A stretch of 64,000 bases of DNA from Sulfuricella denitrificans skB26 (GTDB lineage: Bacteria; Pseudomonadota; Gammaproteobacteria; Burkholderiales; Sulfuricellaceae): NCBI RefSeq assembly GCF_000297055.2, contig NC_022357.1:2572501-2636500 (forward strand). The letters run 5' to 3'. The number at the start of each line of letters is the position of its first letter. Position 1 is the first letter of the stretch. The notes under the pieces were generated by a model, which searched no databases, was not told where the DNA came from, and worked only from the letters and a program-made list of their open reading frames with translations. The translations under genes were made by a program, and so were the position numbers. Shown here one piece after another: positions 7,751 to 56,549 of this stretch.

Positions 7751-7871
7751 TTCACCGCAGAGGCGCGGAGGCGCAGAGGCAAACGAAACCCCAATGCCCG
7801 TAAAAAATGACTTTGGTGAATTTTACCTTGTTTTAAAGGGTTTCTCTGCGCCTCTGCGCCTCTGCGGTTAA
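7751..7871. repeat. Long inverted repeat built of CGCAGAGG units (family A, copy 1)
   Basis: The left arm 7751-7779 carries three near-identical 8-nt CGCAGAGG units and the right arm 7843-7871 their complement, ending in GCGGTTAA. It fills the gap between the converging OsmC and coq7 genes. Related copies are at 11756-11844, 12838-12915 and 17457-17537. It may act as a transcription terminator or be a non-autonomous mobile palindrome. Confidence 0.85.
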
Positions 7872-11569: not shown

Positions 11570-11880
11570 GTAGTGATCTCCTAGAGAGTAAGTTTTTGCA
11601 ACGAGGCTCTTGATTGAGCCCTGTCTTTTACAGACGAGTTCATTATCACCACTCTTCCCCTCGAATTCCAAGCACAAGTAGATAAAAACGTCTTGTTTTT
11701 CGTTAACAGGGGAAAATGTGTTGTTTTTTTGCAACGCACAGCCTAAAAAACAGCTATCCGCAAAGGACGCAATGGAAATCCCGACCCTCAGACATGCCAG
11801 CCTGATTGCTTTTCCTTTGCGAACTCTTGCGTCCTTTGCGGTTAGTATTCTTTAAAAAAGATTTAGAAATGAAATTTAGC
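11570..11880. other. Intergenic region upstream of porin and downstream of trpC
   Basis: This 311-bp stretch has no gene. The part next to the porin must carry its promoter and leader, and includes a small dyad CGAGGCTCTTGATTGAGCCC near 11600-11622. The part near trpC contains the family A repeat at 11756-11844. A short leftward frame here is only a product of the repeat. Confidence 0.7.
11756..11844. repeat. Inverted repeat with CGCAAAGGA units (family A, copy 2)
   Basis: Left arm 11756-11775 reads ATCCGCAAAGGACGCAATGG; right arm 11812-11844 has the complementary CCTTTGCG units and ends in GCGGTTAG. It follows the trpC stop, a position where it could end the trp transcript. Confidence 0.8.
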
Positions 11881-12828
11881 CTAGCCGAACAGCCGAGCCA
11901 GTTCGACTCCCGGGTCTTCCGCGCGCATGAAAGCCTCACCGACCAAGAAGGCGTTGACGCCTTGACCGCGCATCAACTGCACGTCCGCCGGTTTGAGAAT
12001 GCCGCTTTCGGTGATGGCGATGCGCTCGTTAGAAATCCGTGGCAGCAGGTCGAGAGTGGTTTCGAGACGGGTTTCGAAGGTGCGCAGGTTGCGGTTGTTG
12101 ATGCCGATCAACGGGGTCTTGAGCTGCAGGGCCGCATCCAGTTCGGCGGCATCGTGCGACTCCACCAGCACCGCCATGCCCAGTTCATGGGCGAGGGCTT
12201 CGAGTTCCTGCATACGAGCGACATCGAATTCGGCAGCCCCCTCTCCCCAGCCCTCTCCCGCGAGGGGAGAGGGGGTTTTGCCTGGGTGGTCGGGAGCCAA
12301 GCCGTGCGCAGATCGAGCTTCTCCCACCGGGGGAGAGGAAGTTTTGCCCCCTCCCCCTTGACGGGGGAGGGTTGGGGAGAGGGTGAATGCCGCCACTATC
12401 AGCAATATGGCATCCGCGCCAATGGTGCGGGCACGACAGATCTGGTAGGGATCGATCATGAAGTCCTTGCGCAGCACCGGGATGTTGCAGGCTGCGCGCG
12501 CTTCGATCAGGTGGCTCTTGCTGCCCTGAAAAAACTGAACGTCGGTCAATACCGACAAACAGGCCGCGCCATGGGCTTCATAGCTTCGAGCAATGGCAGC
12601 GGGATCGAAATTCTCGCGGATCACCCCACGGGAAGGACTGGCTTTCTTGATCTCGGAGATCACCGCCGGTTTGCCTAAAGCAATCTTGCCACGAATGGCG
12701 CCGACAAAATCGCGCGTCTTCGGCATCGCCTCCGCTTCGGCGCGGACGGCCGCATAGGGTTTTTTCGCCACGGCCCGGGCGACTTCGGCTTGTTTGACTT
12801 CGAGGATTTTTTTCAGGATGTCGGACAT
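11881..12828 (-). CDS. trpC: Indole-3-glycerol phosphate synthase with 53-residue repeat-encoded insert
   Basis: TIM-barrel enzyme closing the indole ring in tryptophan synthesis. At 315 residues it is about 50 longer than the usual 260-265. Conserved parts flank the extra segment: [10 protein letters not shown] with the catalytic lysine, [12 protein letters not shown], then [12 protein letters not shown] before it and [17 protein letters not shown] after it, followed by [12 protein letters not shown] and ITESGI. The insert lies in the loop after the barrel strand LLIVAA and is made of a palindromic element (12226-12384). The frame is intact, so the enzyme may still fold. Last gene of rpe-gph-trpEGDC. 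Confidence 0.94.
12226..12384. repeat. CCCTCTCCCC palindromic element inserted in frame in trpC (family B)
   Basis: A 159-bp segment flanked in the protein by a duplicated F codon (VAAF and AAEF). It begins and ends with the CCCTCTCCCC head and its complement, with inner hairpins near 12250-12272 and 12331-12370. The length is a multiple of three and it has no stop in the trpC frame, so it adds 53 residues rich in G, P and E. Confidence 0.88.
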
Positions 12829-13945: not shown

Positions 13946-13986
13946 TCCCCCTCTCCCCAACCCTCCCCCGCGAGGGGGGAGGGGTT
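13946..13986. repeat. Family B palindrome (trpD side)
   Basis: CCCTCTCCCC head, spacer AA, then CCCTCCCCC and its complement GGGGGGAGGGG around a short CGCGA loop. It lies 4 bp upstream of the trpD ATG. Confidence 0.82.
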
Positions 13987-14035
13987 TTGCACTGCATATT
14001 TTCACCTTCTCCTCCAACAGAGGGAGTGTGGCGCA

Positions 14036-14416
14036 TCACTGGCTTTCTCCCTCCCCCTTGACGGGGGAGGGCCGGGGAGAGGGTGACAGCGCCGCATGGA
14101 CGCACTGCATCACCCCCTCCAAGTTCGTCAACACTTCATTGTTCCAGAATCTCAAAATTTGAAATCCCTGGCTACTCAACCATTGATCGCGAATTTTATC
14201 AGCGTCCTCTTGATCTGCATGCTGCCCACCATCCAGTTCGATAATCAACCGAGATTCAAAACAGACAAAATCAACGATGTAGCCGCCAAGTGGCTGCTGT
14301 CTTTTGAATTTGTAACCATCAAACCGGCCAGCCCGTAGATGCTGCCATAACAACATTTCGGTGTCGGTCGAGTTTGTCCGCAACTGGCGGGCAAAGTTTG
14401 TCAGCTTTGTGGGCAT
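14036..14416 (-). CDS. DUF559 endonuclease-domain protein
   Basis: Small protein of the DUF559 family, related to Vsr and the restriction-endonuclease fold. The 126-residue protein starts MPTKLTNFARQLRTNSTDTE and has a PD-(D/E)xK-like core: FKRQQPLGGYIVDFVCFESRLIIELDGGQH, read as separate pieces, then RDQWLSSQGFQILRFWNNEV. Its last 16 residues ([13 protein letters not shown] and following) are encoded by a family B repeat. The ATG at 14414-14416 is the start of the conserved domain. It sits between trpG and trpD, surrounded by five family B palindromes, and does not belong to tryptophan synthesis. Confidence 0.9.
   Translation of the reverse strand: MPTKLTNFARQLRTNSTDTEMLLWQHLRAGRFDGYKFKRQQPLGGYIVDFVCFESRLIIELDGGQHADQEDADKIRDQWLSSQGFQILRFWNNEVLTNLEGVMQCVHAALSPSPRPSPVKGEGESQ
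14044..14084. repeat. Family B palindrome forming the DUF559 C terminus
   Basis: CTCCCTCCCCC, loop TTGAC, GGGGGAGGG, spacer CC, GGGGAGAGGG: the same element as 13946-13986 in inverted orientation. It is translated as the tail of the DUF559 protein. Confidence 0.82.
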
Positions 14417-14420
14417 GCTA

Positions 14421-14457
14421 CCCTCTCCCCAACCCTCTCCCACAAGGGGAGAGGGGG
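14421..14457. repeat. Family B palindrome (5' of DUF559)
   Basis: CCCTCTCCCC, AA, CCCTCTCCC, loop ACAA, GGGGAGAGGG. It is 4 bp upstream of the DUF559 ATG, so it occupies the place of the ribosome site. Confidence 0.82.
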
Positions 14458-14486
14458 CAACAGTAAAAGGCACTTGCGTTAAATTG

Positions 14487-14526
14487 CCCTCTCCCCAGCC
14501 CTCCCCCATCAAGGGGGAGGGGGCTA
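14487..14526. repeat. Family B palindrome, direct copy
   Basis: CCCTCTCCCC, AG, CCCTCCCCC, loop ATCAA, GGGGGAGGGGG. Same orientation as the copy at 14421. Confidence 0.82.
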
Positions 14527-14562
14527 AAAGCATCGATACTCGCGGCACTGCCTCCATCCGTT

Positions 14563-14602
14563 ACTCCCTCCCCCCTCGCGAAGGAGGACCGGGGAGAGCG
14601 GG
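14563..14602. repeat. Family B palindrome next to trpG end, inverted copy
   Basis: CTCCCTCCCCCC, CGCGAA, GGAGGACC, GGGGAGAG: a more diverged inverted copy ending 2 bp before the trpG stop. Confidence 0.75.
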
Positions 14603-17456: not shown

Positions 17457-17537
17457 TTTCACCGCAAAGGACGCAAAGGAACGCGGGGTAAATCCTCACC
17501 GTTTTCCTTTGCGTACCTTCGCGTCCTTGGCGGTTAA
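17457..17537. repeat. Inverted repeat with CGCAAAGGA units (family A, copy 4)
   Basis: Left arm 17457-17485 has TTTCACCGCAAAGGACGCAA and further units; right arm 17504-17537 is complementary and ends in GCGGTTAA. It fills the rpe-gph gap. The TTTCACCGC start and GCGGTTAA end match copy 1. Confidence 0.83.
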
Positions 17538-42543: not shown

Positions 42544-43613
42544 TGCGAGTCCTGAGTCCTGAGTGCGGAGTCCTGAGAAAAAAACGTCGCGCAACGATTC
42601 GCCGGACTCAGAACTTTTAACTCAGGACTCAGGACTTTCTTTTTTTCTTCCAGCTCGTCCAGCAGCTTCAGCAGCGGGCCCAACTCGCGGTAGCGCTCGC
42701 ACACCTTGCGCAAGTAAGCCATCACCAACGGCATGTCTTTCAGGTAATTCTCCTTGCCATCGCGATGGCAAAGCCGGGCGAAGATGCCTAGCACTTTGAT
42801 ATGGCGCTGCACGCCCATCCATTCAAAATCGCGGTAAAACTCGGCAAAGTCGCGCGACACCGGCAGCCCCGCTTTCTTCGCCTTTTCCCAATAGCGTATC
42901 GTCCAGTCCAGCACCCGCTCCTCCTCCCAGTGGACATAGGCATCCTTGAACAGGGAAACCAGGTCGTAAGTAATCGGCCCGTATACCGCATCCTGAAAAT
43001 CCAGAATGCCCGGCTCGTCGCCGTCTACCATCAGATTGCGGGAATGGTAGTCACGGTGCACGAAGACCTTGGGCTGAGACAGGTTATTCTGAAGGATCTG
43101 GGTCAAAGCCCCACCCAGCGTTTCCGCCTGGGCATGAGTCAATTCAATCTGCAAGTGCTTGCTCACGTACCAATCCGGGAACAACCGCATTTCGCGCAGC
43201 AACAATGCTTCATTGTAATCCGGCAGCACAGCCGGACGACTGGCCAGCTGAATATTGATCAGCGCTCCGGCAGCAGCAGCATATAATGTATCCGCTGCCG
43301 CCTCGGCCTGATTCAGCGCATCCAGATAAGTCGTACTGCCCAGGTCGGTCAGCAACAAAAAGCCCTGCTGCAAATCCTGCGCCAGAATGTGCGGCACGCG
43401 GACGCCCGCATCCCGCAACAGTTCCGCCACATGAATGAACGGCCGACAATCCTCGAATTCCGGTGGTGCATCCATCACGATCAGCGAGCAATCCGGCAGG
43501 CTCACCCGAAAGTAACGACGGAAACTGGCATCGGCCGACGCTGGGGCTAGCGTATAAGATGCGCCAGGAAATTGTGGCTTCAGCCAGTTTTCAAGTAATT
43601 CAAGACGGTCCAT
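42540..43613 (-). CDS. amgK: N-acetylmuramate/N-acetylglucosamine kinase AmgK
   Basis: Anomeric sugar kinase of the aminoglycoside phosphotransferase fold that makes MurNAc-1-phosphate for MurU. The 357-residue protein has VFVHRDYHSRNLMV (catalytic HRDYHxxN) and GILDFQDAVYGP (metal DFQD). The last 34 residues (from about 324, KKKVLSPELKVLSP to TQDSQ) are encoded by a family C repeat and are not part of the fold. Divergent from lptD. Confidence 0.92.
   Translation of the reverse strand: MDRLELLENWLKPQFPGASYTLAPASADASFRRYFRVSLPDCSLIVMDAPPEFEDCRPFIHVAELLRDAGVRVPHILAQDLQQGFLLLTDLGSTTYLDALNQAEAAADTLYAAAAGALINIQLASRPAVLPDYNEALLLREMRLFPDWYVSKHLQIELTHAQAETLGGALTQILQNNLSQPKVFVHRDYHSRNLMVDGDEPGILDFQDAVYGPITYDLVSLFKDAYVHWEEERVLDWTIRYWEKAKKAGLPVSRDFAEFYRDFEWMGVQRHIKVLGIFARLCHRDGKENYLKDMPLVMAYLRKVCERYRELGPLLKLLDELEEKKKVLSPELKVLSPANRCATFFSQDSALRTQDSQ
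42547..42637. repeat. Inverted repeat with GAGTCCTGA units (family C, copy 1)
   Basis: Left arm 42547-42577 with three AGTCCTGAG units, right arm 42605-42637 complementary. It encodes the C-terminal tail of AmgK. Another copy is at 47835-47923. Confidence 0.85.
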
Positions 43614-43913
43614 TTAATCTCGCATTGCGTAAAAGCCTAATTTGTGCGATTTTATCACCGATAACGGCCTAGCTCGGATGTTTCATAAATTCGCGTGATG
43701 ATTGCGCAGGATTTTGTTTTGTAGGGGGATTTTGTGAAAGAGCGGCGTAGTTATTCATACGCCCGACTGAACAAAATTTCCATACGAAACAAAAGACCAG
43801 CGAGGGCGCGCGTCAATTTATGAAATATCCGGGCTAGATAATAACGAGCGCACAAGATGGCCTCGATCCGCGTCCATTTGGCGCTGAGCGAGGCTGTTGC
43901 CATATTGTAGAAC
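43614..43913. other. Intergenic region between amgK and lptD
   Basis: Exactly 300 bp between divergent starts. It must hold the promoters of both genes. No small gene, repeat or strong hairpin was recognised. Confidence 0.6.
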
Positions 43914-51133: not shown

Positions 51134-51877
51134 TTAAAAGCGATGGTAGCGCGCGCCACCAACCTTGAGCGCCCGTTGCGCCGCCGCGTAATGCGGCAGG
51201 GTTTCCTCGACGATGGCCCAGAAACGGGGGGAATGGTTAAGCTCACGGATATGGGCCAGCTCATGTACTACAACATAGTCGATCTGGCTGATGGGCGCCT
51301 GAATCAGCCGCCAGCTCAGACGGATATCGCCACGCGAATTGCAGCTGCCCCAGCGGGTGCGCGCACCTGACAAGGCCACGTTCCTCACCGCCAGCCCCAT
51401 GCGATCGGCGTAATGTTCCAGCCGCTGAACGAAATGGCGGCGCGCTTCGGTGCGGTACCACTGCTCCAGCTTGCGCCTGACCACTTCGGTATCATCGATA
51501 TCCGGCACCTTCACGATCAAGGTATCGTCCTCCAGCAGGTGCGGCTGAGCCCGCAGACCGCCTTCCATCACGCGCAACACCAGCTCGCTGCCCAGGAACA
51601 GCAGCGTTTCCCCGTCAGCACAATTGAAGGTGGCCGGCTGGCGCTCCTGCCATTCACGCAGCTTGTCGAACAGCCACCCGGAACGCGCCCTTAATACCTG
51701 TTCCAGGCGGCTATCGGCGGCCCGTTGCGGCGCACTCACGGTCAGACCGCGATGATCGATGCACAAACCGATAGTCCGGCGTTTTGGGCTGCGCTTGAGC
51801 AAATATGAAATTTCCTGGCCATCCAGCCGAAGGGTGCGGGTTTCGCTGGCGGCGCGTGGTTTGGAGAAAAGACTCAC
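51134..51877 (-). CDS. M48 family (YgjP/DUF45) metallopeptidase
   Basis: Zinc peptidase-like protein of 247 residues with the active-site motif [16 protein letters not shown] (HExxH plus distal H) and the preceding [16 protein letters not shown], the YgjP-type signature. No signal peptide, so cytoplasmic. Substrate unknown. The start overlaps the plsC stop by 4 bp. Confidence 0.9.
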
Positions 51878-52590
51878 GCTTCCCCGGCGGCGATGCGCGC
51901 CATTTCGCCCTCGATCCAGGCTTCAGCCCGCGCGTTCAACTCGTCTGCCTTGATCCCTTTTGAATCGATCTGCGGGCCGAAGCTGATGGTGATCATGCCG
52001 GGTCGTTTGAGAAAACCGTTCTTGCCCCAGTACTCGCCGGCGTTATGCGCCACTGGCAGCACCGGGGTTCCGGTATGGGTGGCGAGCCAGGCACCGCCGA
52101 TATTGTACTTGCCTTTCTCGCCGGGTCGGACACGCGTGCCCTCGGGAAAAACCACGACCCAGAAGCCTTTTGCCAATCGCGCCTTACCCTGATCCAGGAT
52201 CTGCTTCAGCGCGGCCCTGCCTGCTCCCCTGTCGATAGCTATCGGGCTGGCGATGGCCAGCGCCCAGCCGAAAAAAGGGATGCGCAGCAGCTCGCGTTTC
52301 AACACCCACACCAGCGGCGGCAGAATATCCTGGAACGCCAGGGTCTCCCACGCCGACTGGTGCTTGGACAGAACAATAACCTGAGTATTGGGAATGTTCT
52401 CCCGGCCGACAATGCGGTAGGAAAGCCCGCAGGTCAGCTTTAGCCAGGGCAGCATGATTTTTGCCCAATGCGCGATCAGGCGGTAGCGGGTGACGGGGTC
52501 GAGGGGCAGAGAAAAGAAGGCTGCTAAAAAAAAGAAGGGGGTGAACAGCCACATCCCCAAAGCGAAGATGAAGGAACGAATCCAGATCAT
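51874..52590 (-). CDS. plsC: 1-acyl-sn-glycerol-3-phosphate acyltransferase
   Basis: Second acylation step of phospholipid synthesis at the inner membrane. The 238-residue protein has two N-terminal hydrophobic stretches, the active-site block SKHQSAWETL (HX4E in place of HX4D, known in this branch) and VFPEGTRVRPGEKG. It follows gmhB with a family D repeat between. Confidence 0.92.
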   Translation of the reverse strand: MIWIRSFIFALGMWLFTPFFFLAAFFSLPLDPVTRYRLIAHWAKIMLPWLKLTCGLSYRIVGRENIPNTQVIVLSKHQSAWETLAFQDILPPLVWVLKRELLRIPFFGWALAIASPIAIDRGAGRAALKQILDQGKARLAKGFWVVVFPEGTRVRPGEKGKYNIGGAWLATHTGTPVLPVAHNAGEYWGKNGFLKRPGMITISFGPQIDSKGIKADELNARAEAWIEGEMARIAAGEA

Positions 52591-52600
52591 GCTTTAAAAG

Positions 52601-52688
52601 CCGTGAGGAGTGAAGAGTTAGAAGTGAGGAGTAAAAGCACCCCACCATTGCCGTTTTTGACCTTACTCCTCACCCCTAACTCCTCACC
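52601..52688. repeat. Inverted repeat with GTGAGGAGT units (family D)
   Basis: Left arm 52601-52634 (GTGAGGAGTGAAGAG with repeat), right arm 52661-52688 complementary. It lies between gmhB and plsC and supplies the last codons (EVRS, stop) of gmhB. Confidence 0.82.
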
Positions 52689-53227
52689 TCAATCACGTGC
52701 TTGACCGCTTCACCAAGGTCAGCAAAAACCAGGGTGTTTTCAGGCAGACCGCCTTTTTCGTGGGTTTTCATGCCTTTGCCGGTAAGCACCAGGATCGGCT
52801 GGCCGCCCACTTCCGCCGATGCCTGCAAATCACGCAGGCTGTCGCCGATGCAGGGTACGCCAGCCAGGCTCATGTTGAAGCGCGCAGCGATTTCCTGGAA
52901 CATGCCGGGCTTGGGTTTGCGGCAGCCGCAATCCGAATCGGCGGCGTGGGGGCAAAAAAAGCACGCATCGATGCGCGCACCAACCTGGGCCAGAGTTTTG
53001 TGCATCTTGTCGTGAATTTCGTTGAGCATGGCCATGTCGAACAGGCCGCGGCCGACGCCGGACTGGTTGGTCGCCAGCACCACCTTGAACCCGGCCTGAT
53101 TCAGGCGCGCAATCGCCTCCAGGCTACCGGGGATGGGCCTCCACTCTTCCGGGCTCTTGATGAAGTGATCGCTGTCGTAATTCACCACGCCATCGCGATC
53201 GAGAATGATCAGTTTAATTGGGGGCAT
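52676..53227 (-). CDS. gmhB: Heptose-1,7-bisphosphate 7-phosphatase
   Basis: HAD phosphatase for the LPS inner-core heptose pathway. The 183-residue protein has ILDRDGVVN at the start, the zinc loop CPHAADSDCGCRKPKPG and the C-terminal GDSLRDLQA. No ribosome site is visible before the ATG; the fold-back element ends 4 bp upstream. It follows glyS, common in betaproteobacteria. Confidence 0.94.
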   Translation of the reverse strand: MPPIKLIILDRDGVVNYDSDHFIKSPEEWRPIPGSLEAIARLNQAGFKVVLATNQSGVGRGLFDMAMLNEIHDKMHKTLAQVGARIDACFFCPHAADSDCGCRKPKPGMFQEIAARFNMSLAGVPCIGDSLRDLQASAEVGGQPILVLTGKGMKTHEKGGLPENTLVFADLGEAVKHVIEVRS

Positions 53228-53231
53228 ATGT

Positions 53232-53500
53232 AGGGCTCGTTAATGGATAATTTGGGCATACGTTGCCGCATATTCGGGATGGATGCAAGGCGCGAGGCGC
53301 GGCGAATGGTTGTTCCATTCGCAAGCCTCGCAACGCCGCAGACGCCAGAATACGCGGCAACCCTTCGGGCTGGGGCTGGTTGGGATGCATTCCGTTGTTG
53401 CGAACCGCTTGTTGTGAACGGACATAACTGCGCGTCCCGCGCCTAGGACTGCACCCCAACCAGCCCCAGCGTATGCCCAAATTATCCATTAACGAGCCCT
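53232..53500. repeat. Fold-back element with 31-bp perfect terminal inverted repeats and two inner stems
   Basis: Ends 53232-53262 and 53470-53500 are exact complements (AGGGCTCGTTAATGGATAAT and on). Inside, stem II pairs 53263-53275 with 53348-53360 and holds a nested hairpin (53292-53309 with 53314-53331); stem III pairs 53369-53389 with 53450-53470, 20 of 21. No target-site duplication is evident. It could be a MITE, a fold-back transposon or a structured RNA. Frames inside on both strands look spurious. Confidence 0.85.
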
Positions 53501-53508
53501 TTATCCCG

Positions 53509-55629
53509 TCAGGATGCCAATTTCGAAATATCCGCCACCTGGTTCATCAGTTCACCCAGGCTTTTCAGCAGCGCCAATCGGTTGTTGCGCAGCTGCGGCT
53601 CTTCGGCCATCACCATCACCTGGTCGAAAAAGGTATCGACCTCGGTGCGCACGCCGGCCAGCGCCGTCAATGCTTCTGTATAACCGCCATTCTGCACCGA
53701 TGAGACCACACTCGGGGCCAGTTCGTTCATCGCCTCGAACAGCGCCTTTTCAGCCGGCTCCGACATCAGCGCCAGTTCCGCACCGCCCGCCGGCAATTCG
53801 CCGGCTTTTTTCAGGATGTTCTGGATGCGTTTGTTCGCCGCCGCCAGCGCTGCCGCCTCGGGTAGTTGCTTGAAAGCTTGCACCGCGTCCAGGCGCGGAA
53901 CCACTCGGTCGATACGGGTTGGCGCCTGGCTCACCACGGCATCGATCTCGTCCGGCGCAAATCCCTTGTCGCGCAGATAGCCCTTCAGCCGCTCCAGCAT
54001 GAAACCGTGAACATCCAGCGCCACGCTGTCGGCCAGCATTTCCGCCGGGAACAGCGCGCGGGTCTGCTGCAGCAATTGCAGCAGGTCGAGCGGCAGCCCC
54101 GACTCGGCGAGGATGCGCAGCACGCCCAGGGCGTGACGGCGCAGTCCGAAGGGATCCTTGTCGCCGGTAGGCACCAGGCCGATGCCGTAGATGCCGACCA
54201 GGGTATCCAGCTTGTCGGCCAGCGCCGCCGCCGCGCCGATGTTGTCCTGCGGCAGCGCATCGCCGGCGAAGCGCGGCCAGTAATGCTGCTCGATGGCGCG
54301 CGCCACTTCCTCGCGCTCGCCGTCATGCAGGGCATAGTATAGGCCCATGATGCCCTGCAGTTCGGGGAACTCGCCCACCATGTCGGTCAGCAGATCGGCC
54401 TTGGCGAGGTGTGCGGCGCGCTCGGCCAGCTCCGCGCTGGCGTTGAGCTGGCGCGCGATCTCGCCGGCCAGCTTGGTGACACGCTGAGTCCGCGCCAGCT
54501 GGGTGCCGAGCTTGTTATGGTAGACCACGTTACCCAGCTTCGGCACGCGCGAAGCCAGGGTGTTCTTGCGGTCCTGATCGAAGAAGAACTTGGCGTCCGC
54601 CAGACGCGGGCGCACTACCCGCTCGTTGCCACCGATCACCGCACTCGGGTCGGCAGGATGAATGTTGGAAACGATCAGAAACTGGTTGCTCAACTTGCCG
54701 GCCGTATCCAGCAACGGGAAATATTTCTGGTTCGCCTTCATGGTCAGAATCAGGCATTCCTGCGGCACGCCGAGAAATTCCTCGCCAAAGCAGCCGATCA
54801 GCACATTGGGACGCTCCACCAGGCCGGTGACCTCGTCCAGCAGGGCATCGTCCTCCACCGGCTTCACGCCGCCGACTTTCGCCGCTGCTTCATGGAGCTG
54901 GCGCACGATGTCGGCGCGGCGCTCTTCAAAACTGGCGATCACCGCACCCTCGTTTTCCATCTGCGCCGCATAGCTGTCGGCCTCCTTGAGGCTGACCGGG
55001 CTGACGGCAGCCTCGAAACGGTGGCCTTGGGTGGCGCGACCGGCGGTCAGGCCGAGCACTGAAACCGGCACCACCTCGGCACCGTGCAGGGCCACCAGGC
55101 CATGCACCGGCCGCACAAAATTGACTGTGCTCCAGCCGGGCTGTTCACAATTTTCATGCAACTGATAGGCCATTACCTTGGGGATCGGCAGCTTGGTCAG
55201 CGACTCGTCCAGTGCCTTTTGCAGCCCTTCCACCAGAGTCGCGCCCTTGGCCACACTATCAAAAAATAGCGCTTCGCCCTTGCCTTCGCCGACGCGCTTG
55301 AGATTCGGAACCATAGCCTCATCCTGTCCCAGCGCAGCGAGCCGCTTCAGCAATGCGGGCGTGGCCTTGCCATTGGCATCCAGCCCCACGTTCACCGGCA
55401 TCAGTTTGTGCGACACCGGTTTGTCCGCAGCCTGGGCGGCCACGCCAGCAACCTGCACCGCCAGACGACGCGGCGAGGCGTAAGGCGTTACGACAGCATC
55501 GGCTGCGGCCAGGCCTTGTGCCTTGAGGGAATCCGCAATGGCGGCGGCAAAGGCATCGCCCAGCTTCTTCAGCGCCTTGGGCGGAAGCTCTTCGACAAAA
55601 ATTTCTACCAGCAGGTTTTGAGTGCTCAT
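53509..55629 (-). CDS. glyS: Glycyl-tRNA synthetase beta subunit
   Basis: Tetrameric GlyRS subunit that binds tRNA. The 706-residue protein starts [20 protein letters not shown] and has the expected HD-like and C-terminal anticodon-binding regions ([12 protein letters not shown]). The ATG overlaps the glyQ stop by 4 bp; a longer frame 5' lies inside glyQ. Confidence 0.97.
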
Positions 55630-56549
55630 GCCTTTACCGCCTTTTCTTCCAGCTTGGCCAGCACTTCGTCGGCCCACTCTTTGGGTGCCATCGGGAAGCC
55701 GAGGCGGGCGCGGCTATCCAGGTAGCTCTGGGCGACGCTGCGCGCCAGGTTGCGGATGCGGCCGATGTAGGCGGCGCGTTCGGTCACCGAAATGGCGCCA
55801 CGGGCATCCAGCAGATTGAAGGTGTGTGCGGTTTTCAGTACCTGCTCGTAGGCAGGCAGGGCAAGCTGACTTTCCATCAGGTGTTTGGCCTGTTTCTCGT
55901 GGGCATTGAAAGCGGTGAGCAGGAATTCCACGTCGCTGTGCTCGAAGTTGTAGGTGGACTGCTCCACCTCGTTCTGGTGGTATACATCACGATAACTGAG
56001 ACCCTTGGTCCAGGTCAGGTCGAAGACGTTTTCGACCCCCTGCAAATACATCGCCAGCCGCTCGAGGCCATAGGTGATCTCGCCGGTAATCGGCTTGCAG
56101 TCGATGCCGCCGACCTGCTGGAAATAGGTGAACTGGGTCACTTCCATGCCGTTCAGCCAGACTTCCCAGCCCAGGCCCCAGGCACCCAGAGTGGGGTTTT
56201 CCCAATCGTCCTCGACAAAGCGAATGTCGTTGCTCTTGAGGTCGAAGCCGAGTTTTTCCAGCGAACCGAGGTACAGTTCCAGAATATTTTCCGGCGCAGG
56301 TTTCAGCACCACCTGGAACTGGTAGTAATGCTGGAGGCGATTGGGGTTCTCGCCATAACGGCCATCCTTGGGGCGACGCGAGGGCTGGACATAAGCGGCA
56401 CGCCAGGGCTCGGGGCCGAGGGCGCGCAGAAAGGTGGCGGTATGGCTGGTACCCGCGCCCACTTCCATGTCGTAGGGCTGCAACAGGGCGCAACCGCGTT
56501 CGGCCCAGTAATTCTGAAGCGTAAGAATGATTTCCTGGAAAGTCAGCAT
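55626..56549 (-). CDS. glyQ: Glycyl-tRNA synthetase alpha subunit
   Basis: Catalytic class II subunit of the tetrameric GlyRS. The 307-residue protein starts [20 protein letters not shown], with motif 2 [23 protein letters not shown] (in part) and motif 3 [12 protein letters not shown]. The ATG at 56547-56549 is used on conservation. Upstream gene is the GIY-YIG protein, 35 bp away. Confidence 0.97.

Follow-up and report, generated by a model that had tools for sequence, protein, structure and literature searches.

The glyS and gmhB genes of Sulfuricella denitrificans skB26, which belong to a glyS-gmhB-plsC gene order, are separated by a 269-bp element that begins 4 bp upstream of the ATG of gmhB (53227, minus strand) and lies within the 64,000-nt stretch of contig NC_022357.1 analysed here (hereafter, the window, meaning the whole stretch; Table 1). 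This placement is as described in the original prediction, and so is the perfect 31-bp terminal stem, in which AGGGCTCGTTAATGGATAATTTGGGCATACG at the left end pairs with CGTATGCCCAAATTATCCATTAACGAGCCCT at the right end. Folding likewise bears out the proposed A-B-B'-C-C'-A' order, with two independent hairpins of ~100 nt each enclosed by the stem. The predicted three-way junction stands in part: the stem and the two hairpins are there, but a mini hairpin of 7 nt, overlooked previously, lies between hairpins B and C, so that the branching is that of a four-way cloverleaf. Furthermore, the two hairpins are homologous to each other when C is read on the minus strand (local score 38, compared with a shuffle maximum of 27, n=1000).

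Table 1. The element between glyS and gmhB, its parts and its neighbours (positions in the window; E-values of covariance model R1 are rough)
Feature	Position	Strand	Evidence and remarks
Whole element	53232..53500	.	AGGGC...GCCCT, 269 bp; no copy at the orthologous site of relatives
Left arm, terminal inverted repeat / terminal stem, 31 bp	53232..53262	+	Perfect complement of 53470-53500; covaries between copies
Right arm, terminal inverted repeat / terminal stem, 31 bp	53470..53500	-	Pairs with the left arm; covaries between copies
Type-1 hairpin module (hairpin B)	53262..53361	+	Covariance model R1, 99 bits, E 3.6e-20
Mini hairpin CC-TTC-GG	53362..53368	+	Folds of the window element and sister elements
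Type-2 hairpin module (hairpin C)	53369..53470	-	Inverted relative to B; R1, 90.7 bits, E 3e-18; homologous to B
gmhB	52676..53227	-	ORF and product from sequence; neighbour; upstream sequence displaced by the element; empty site in G011
glyS	53509..55677	-	ORF list; other neighbour; stop (53509) 8 bp from the element end

The fold of the element is far beyond chance. As single-stranded DNA, it reaches −103.4 kcal/mol, compared with −51.6 ± 3.8 for shuffled sequences (z −13.7), and as RNA, −183.2 kcal/mol (z −14.8), with none of 200 shuffles being as low in either case; likewise, 298 pieces of 269 nt drawn at random from the window all fold less well (−177.1 for the element versus a mean of −88 and a best value of −148.6). 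The ORF list of the 269 bp includes no transposase, and a 91-aa ORF on the minus strand (53214-53489), which starts at the ATG of the arm and overlaps the start of gmhB, is probably spurious. An Rfam scan produced no match within 53232-53500 up to E=1, and no match to the sequence was detected in plasmids, phages, viral contigs or E. coli, so that the earlier statement that no known element was recognised holds.

The orthologous glyS-gmhB gap lacks the element in two relatives, G011 and G010. The flanks in the empty-site relatives are 92-95% identical to those in the window, with the element missing exactly at the gap, and empty sites were found for further copies, too. The window copy is not bounded by an intact target duplication (GTA..TTT), and the empty site fits an insertion without duplication. 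As a result of the insertion, the sequence upstream of gmhB (minus strand) changed from GACGGGATAAACCTATG at the empty site to CGAGCCCTACATATG in the window. The original upstream sequence is now 269 bp away from the start codon, and judging from this arrangement, an effect of the element on gmhB expression is plausible and one on gmhB translation probable. In G002 (L169), the same gap is filled by a repeat similar to the CCCTCTCCCC/GGGGAGAGGG clusters that occur in both orientations at 12239-12383 and 13947-14602 of the window, whereas in G007 (L170), the gmhB start is duplicated and other palindromic repeats are present, which suggests that the gap is prone to insertion. On the other side of gmhB, towards plsC, a near-perfect hairpin, GTGAGGAGT.../...ACTCCTCAC, spans 52603-52696, so that folded repeats flank this gene on both sides. 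Matches of Rfam miRNA models (E up to 1) to this hairpin and to 51829-51905 were discarded as spurious hits to unrelated hairpins.

The element is mobile. At least two further full copies, 93% identical to the window copy, are dispersed in the host genome (3.22 Mb, two contigs; copy counts in this genome are lower bounds), and 34 of 100 relatives contain matches, including full-length copies (266-270 bp, with identities as low as 79%) at unrelated sites. A scan of GTDB representative genomes for the end sequence extended the family to at least 80 contig stretches from Sulfuricella, Sulfurimicrobium, Sulfuriferula, Thiobacillus, Nitrosomonas halophila, Gallionellaceae and Hydrogenophilales. Thus, the search of the genome and its relatives proposed in the original prediction uncovered dozens of copies at other sites, and together with the empty sites, this contradicts the notion of a single copy fixed in all relatives as an RNA gene. 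In one distant genome, the copies at two loci are 99.3% identical, indicating that some subfamilies moved recently. Among 96 distinct insertions of the subfamily that includes the window element, the flanks are TAA/TAA in 38, TTA/TTA in 26 and mixed in 12 (Fisher p=4e-10), that is, a 3-bp TWA target duplication accompanies 64 insertions and is absent in about a third, with the flanking consensus CTWAG. Duplications of 3 bp are the product of DDE transposases with a 3-bp stagger. Insertion without duplication, of the Y1 type, had been suggested by the first empty sites and was dropped once the TWA rule emerged from the 96 insertions. The element accordingly displays the properties of a miniature inverted-repeat transposable element (MITE), namely, a non-coding body of 269 bp, perfect ends of 31 bp, dispersed copies, empty orthologous sites and target duplication.

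The ends of this subfamily follow the pattern GGGCTCGTTAATGAATAA, and paired ends, counted over the family genomes and the 80 contig stretches, fall into several size classes. In over half of the cases, they are 266-270 bp apart. Pairs separated by 161-176 bp form a shorter class, of which the tested copies (161-162 bp) contain one module, and pairs separated by 325-367 bp carry an insertion within one hairpin. In addition, there are bare palindromes of 34-59 bp, a few intermediate lengths and solo arms. No pair was detected at insertion-sequence spacing; we infer that the short forms are collapse products of a palindrome. The arm end, AGGGCTCGTTAATG, contains an ATG, and the solo arms L113 (G012:C19:26833) and L119 (G017:C1:115388) abut reading frames, so that in these cases, translation of the adjacent gene may start at the ATG of the arm.

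The fold extends well beyond this subfamily. Starting from matches to the hairpins, we identified elements with unrelated ends, including AGGGCGTGTTAACA, AGGGCCTGTTGATA, AGAGCCTATTTCAGTAG, AGGAGCCTATCTCAG, AGAGCTCATTTCATAA, AGCAGCCTGTCGGAC and others, and when 34 such differently ended elements were folded, 32 showed the expected branching. The dimensions of these elements adhere to a strict ruler, with a stem of 27-34 bp (mostly 30-32), followed by 99-102 nt, 7 nt and again 99-102 nt; the mini hairpin is 7 nt long in all these folds except for L053, and the total length is about 266-277 bp in nearly all of the elements. Most consist of one type-1 and one type-2 module, and the modules are mutually inverted in nearly every element, L330 being the case in which both have the same orientation. 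A covariance model, R1, was built from the hairpin module with a short calibration, which makes its E-values rough. In the window, R1 recovers both modules of the element and nothing else. At E≤1e-4, modules were detected in 48 genomes out of a sample of 185 covering the GTDB class. Most genomes lack any match, and many of the positive ones come near the ceiling of 21 scored candidates, often with at least 15-20 module copies each. The matches mostly form inverted pairs within elements of ~265-290 bp, again with other ends and in some cases flanked by CTAG. The host genome itself contains additional groups. L011, L015 and L416-L418 represent a separate group of 236-263 bp with ends ATCCTAGAAACCTCAGTTG and at least five copies, in which the R1 module is present in L011 and L015, and L415 (C1:517500-518400) is a 268-bp element of another subfamily, which has ends AGGACCTATTAAGCAATAAGC and is flanked by TAA on either side.

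Comparison of the copies demonstrates that base pairing in the element is conserved. Across 34 full copies, compensatory changes are seen at approximately one third of the 102 pairs, and all four Watson-Crick types are represented at some of the pairs; the arms differ by 1.2 mismatches per 24 nt within a copy, compared with 2.7 between copies. In an alignment of 32 modules, 91.5% of the cells pair, as opposed to 61.8% after shuffling, and two-sided changes are found in 272 cells versus 84.7, a signal that is lost when the partner is slid. Such changes affect 26 of the 30 module pairs, and the covariation score is 0.714, compared with 0.186 for shuffled data. Unpaired positions and mismatches within the stems are conserved as well, and the modules share the motif GC[AT]AGGCGC...GCAAC, with invariant AGG and GCAAC bases. 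By eye, the GCAAC and AGGCGC motifs are unlike the attC core boxes RYYYAAC / GTTRRRY. A structure maintained in an RNA transcribed from one strand is expected to strongly favour G·U. In the pairs common to the folds of both strands of the 34 copies, G·T accounts for 39 cells and A·C for 47; in the modules, the respective values are 28 and 16, beside 785 Watson-Crick cells. The lack of a preference for G·U suggests that the fold is maintained as DNA.

A link to a specific class of transposases comes from a sister element of 265-271 bp, depending on the placement of the ends, with two modules, on plasmid pAcX50f of Azotobacter chroococcum NCIMB 8003. The end of this element, CTAGGGTCTGTTGACGTTTTG, is identical over 21 nt to one end of an IS5-family element on plasmid pAcX50d of the same strain; an IS4-family gene interrupts the latter element. 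Similar ends delimit IS5-family elements of 838 and 856 bp on plasmids of Paracoccus and Aeromonas; the transposases from A. chroococcum and Aeromonas match the IS5-family model NF033580 with E-values of 2e-77 and 1e-79, respectively, and an IS5-like element of Nitrosomonas halophila is flanked by a TAA duplication. Modules are missing from the IS5-family elements with related ends, which means that the core does not simply represent IS5 interior sequence. For the window-element subfamily, a search of 22 family genomes and the 80 contig stretches for an insertion sequence with exact AGGGCTCGTTAATG ends came up empty, yielding, like the search of three genomes with relaxed patterns, only element-sized, collapsed or solo forms; and the 13 DDE_Tnp_1 and 8 DUF4096 matches in selected genomes are all associated with other ends. 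Similarly, for the AGAGCCTATTTCAGTAG subfamily, 300 genomes yielded no convincing pair of ends at insertion-sequence spacing. We infer, by analogy with the sister element and from the target rule, that an IS5-type transposase moves the window-element subfamily. Thus, as far as known insertion sequences and MITEs are concerned, ends of the IS5 type are found in a sister subfamily, but no named MITE family was found.

Considering these observations together, the element is quite probably a non-autonomous, MITE-like element that is mobilised in trans by an IS5-family transposase and carries a conserved core of folded DNA. Under this scenario, a DDE transposase of the IS5 family would cut and join the element at its terminal inverted repeats and insert it at CTWAG-like targets, generating the 3-bp TWA duplication. 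The core, that is, the two homologous ~100-nt modules in inverted orientation around the 7-nt mini hairpin, closed by the pairing of the ends, would fold in the cell as single-stranded DNA or as an extruded cruciform, and this fold would promote the spread of the element, for example, by holding the ends together or by binding a protein.

The principal alternative is an ordinary MITE with a passive relic inside, in which the stems are perfected by template switching during replication and the core is not under selection. This possibility, which we regard as unlikely albeit worth serious consideration, would explain why the arms agree within copies and why changes private to one copy are often present in both of its arms, as in the case of AGGACTCGC/GCGAGTCCT in G010, and the bare palindromes of 34-59 bp illustrate how such repeats collapse. 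Template switching accounts for the agreement of the arms but not for the ruler, the conserved mismatches or the unpaired bases: it would erase mismatches within stems rather than keep them and would not preserve length, whereas the ~100/7/~100 spacing and the pattern of internal loops persist across subfamilies with unrelated ends, in different bacterial orders. Nevertheless, the perfection of the arms could partly result from template-switch correction of palindromes and not from selection.

Other readings of the fold fare worse. Two homologous, inverted hairpins within one long branched hairpin constitute the plan of a REPIN, and given that the fold is apparently kept in DNA, a REPIN/BIME-like element that a RAYT/Y1 tyrosine transposase mobilises in the form of single-stranded DNA has to be considered. 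This seems improbable because most insertions show the 3-bp TWA duplication, the long terminal inverted repeats of the sister subfamily correspond to the ends of IS5-family elements, and the modules are ~100 nt long rather than 20-40 nt; Y1 enzymes are not known to make 3-bp TWA target duplications. The great stability of the fold, the strong covariation and the location directly upstream of gmhB, where the element could be co-transcribed with glyS-gmhB, are all compatible with a structured non-coding or cis-regulatory RNA of which the copies are conserved as RNA. The balance of G·T and A·C in the strand-neutral pairs and in the modules, for which we dropped the interpretation as an RNA gene, the lack of an Rfam match, the unrelated insertion sites, the target duplications and the absence at orthologous sites make this explanation very improbable. 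Finally, the likeness to a T-shaped viral terminal repeat noted in the original prediction is confined to the outline of the fold. A terminus of viral or plasmid replication, akin to that of parvoviruses, can be considered nearly negligible as an explanation: no match was found in viral contigs or phages, no replication genes lie nearby, and the element resides in the interior of a bacterial chromosome, as one of dozens of chromosomal copies with target duplications.

The preferred reading, a MITE-like element with a folded core, is best appreciated against previously characterised systems. Like QMITE2, Chunjie, ERIC and RUP/BOX (PMC10969869), the element is short and intergenic, encodes no transposase, has terminal inverted repeats, a stable fold and size variants, generates target duplications and is probably moved in trans by the transposase of an insertion sequence; unlike these elements, its two-module cloverleaf recurs under unrelated ends in many bacterial families. 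The resemblance to the IS5 family (NF033580, transpos_IS5_3) lies in the ends of the A. chroococcum sister element and in flanks of the TA/TWA type, but the window element has no transposase gene, and no insertion sequence matching the AGGGCTCGTTAATG ends was found. REPINs and the REP-RAYT system resemble it in that two homologous inverted hairpins form one branched DNA hairpin and the copies are dispersed between genes; the differences are the long terminal inverted repeats, the 3-bp duplications, the ~100-nt modules and an enzyme that is apparently of the DDE rather than the tyrosine type. The AAV-type T-shaped inverted terminal repeat has the A-B-B'-C-C'-A' outline in common with the element, which is larger, includes the extra mini hairpin and occurs as a dispersed chromosomal repeat without a viral context. 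The RIME elements of rhizobia, which are intergenic, ~300 bp long and composed of large palindromes, are similar to the element in size, setting and palindromic structure.

MITEs normally are deletion derivatives of one insertion sequence, with which they share the inside, and they are usually treated as passive relics in which only the ends matter. Here, the inside is the constant part, with the same DNA cloverleaf of nearly fixed length found under many different ends. Thus, the kind of element, a MITE, is already known, and it is the constant core under changing ends that is apparently undescribed. We found no description of the element in the literature (subscription papers were outside the scope of the search, and R200/R178 of Pseudomonas fluorescens, PMC2718517, outside the comparison). 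It is conceivable, although we advance the idea tentatively and rate it as somewhat doubtful, that a self-folding cloverleaf, and not the ends, is the defining feature of a whole class of mobile DNA exemplified by the element. In such a class, the two-module core would be an active DNA structure, bound by a transposase or a host protein and served by one IS5-type transposase after another, with the ends being replaced over time and the fold remaining the same. About one in four of the genomes sampled from a large bacterial class carries modules, and the R1 model enables annotation of these repeats. If the fold is functional, the element offers an opportunity to test whether a transposon can exploit foreign transposases through the shape into which its DNA folds.

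Several other repeats are present in the window. A 169-bp sequence at 43669-43837, with 23-bp inverted ends CTAGCTCGGATGTTTCATAAATT and no R1 module, is possibly another MITE. Inverted repeats of the CCGCAGAGGCGC / AAAGGACGCAAAGG type are located at 7751-7871, 11754-11845 and 17466-17519, and quasi-palindromic GAGTCCTGAGTCCTGAG repeats occupy 42547-42636.
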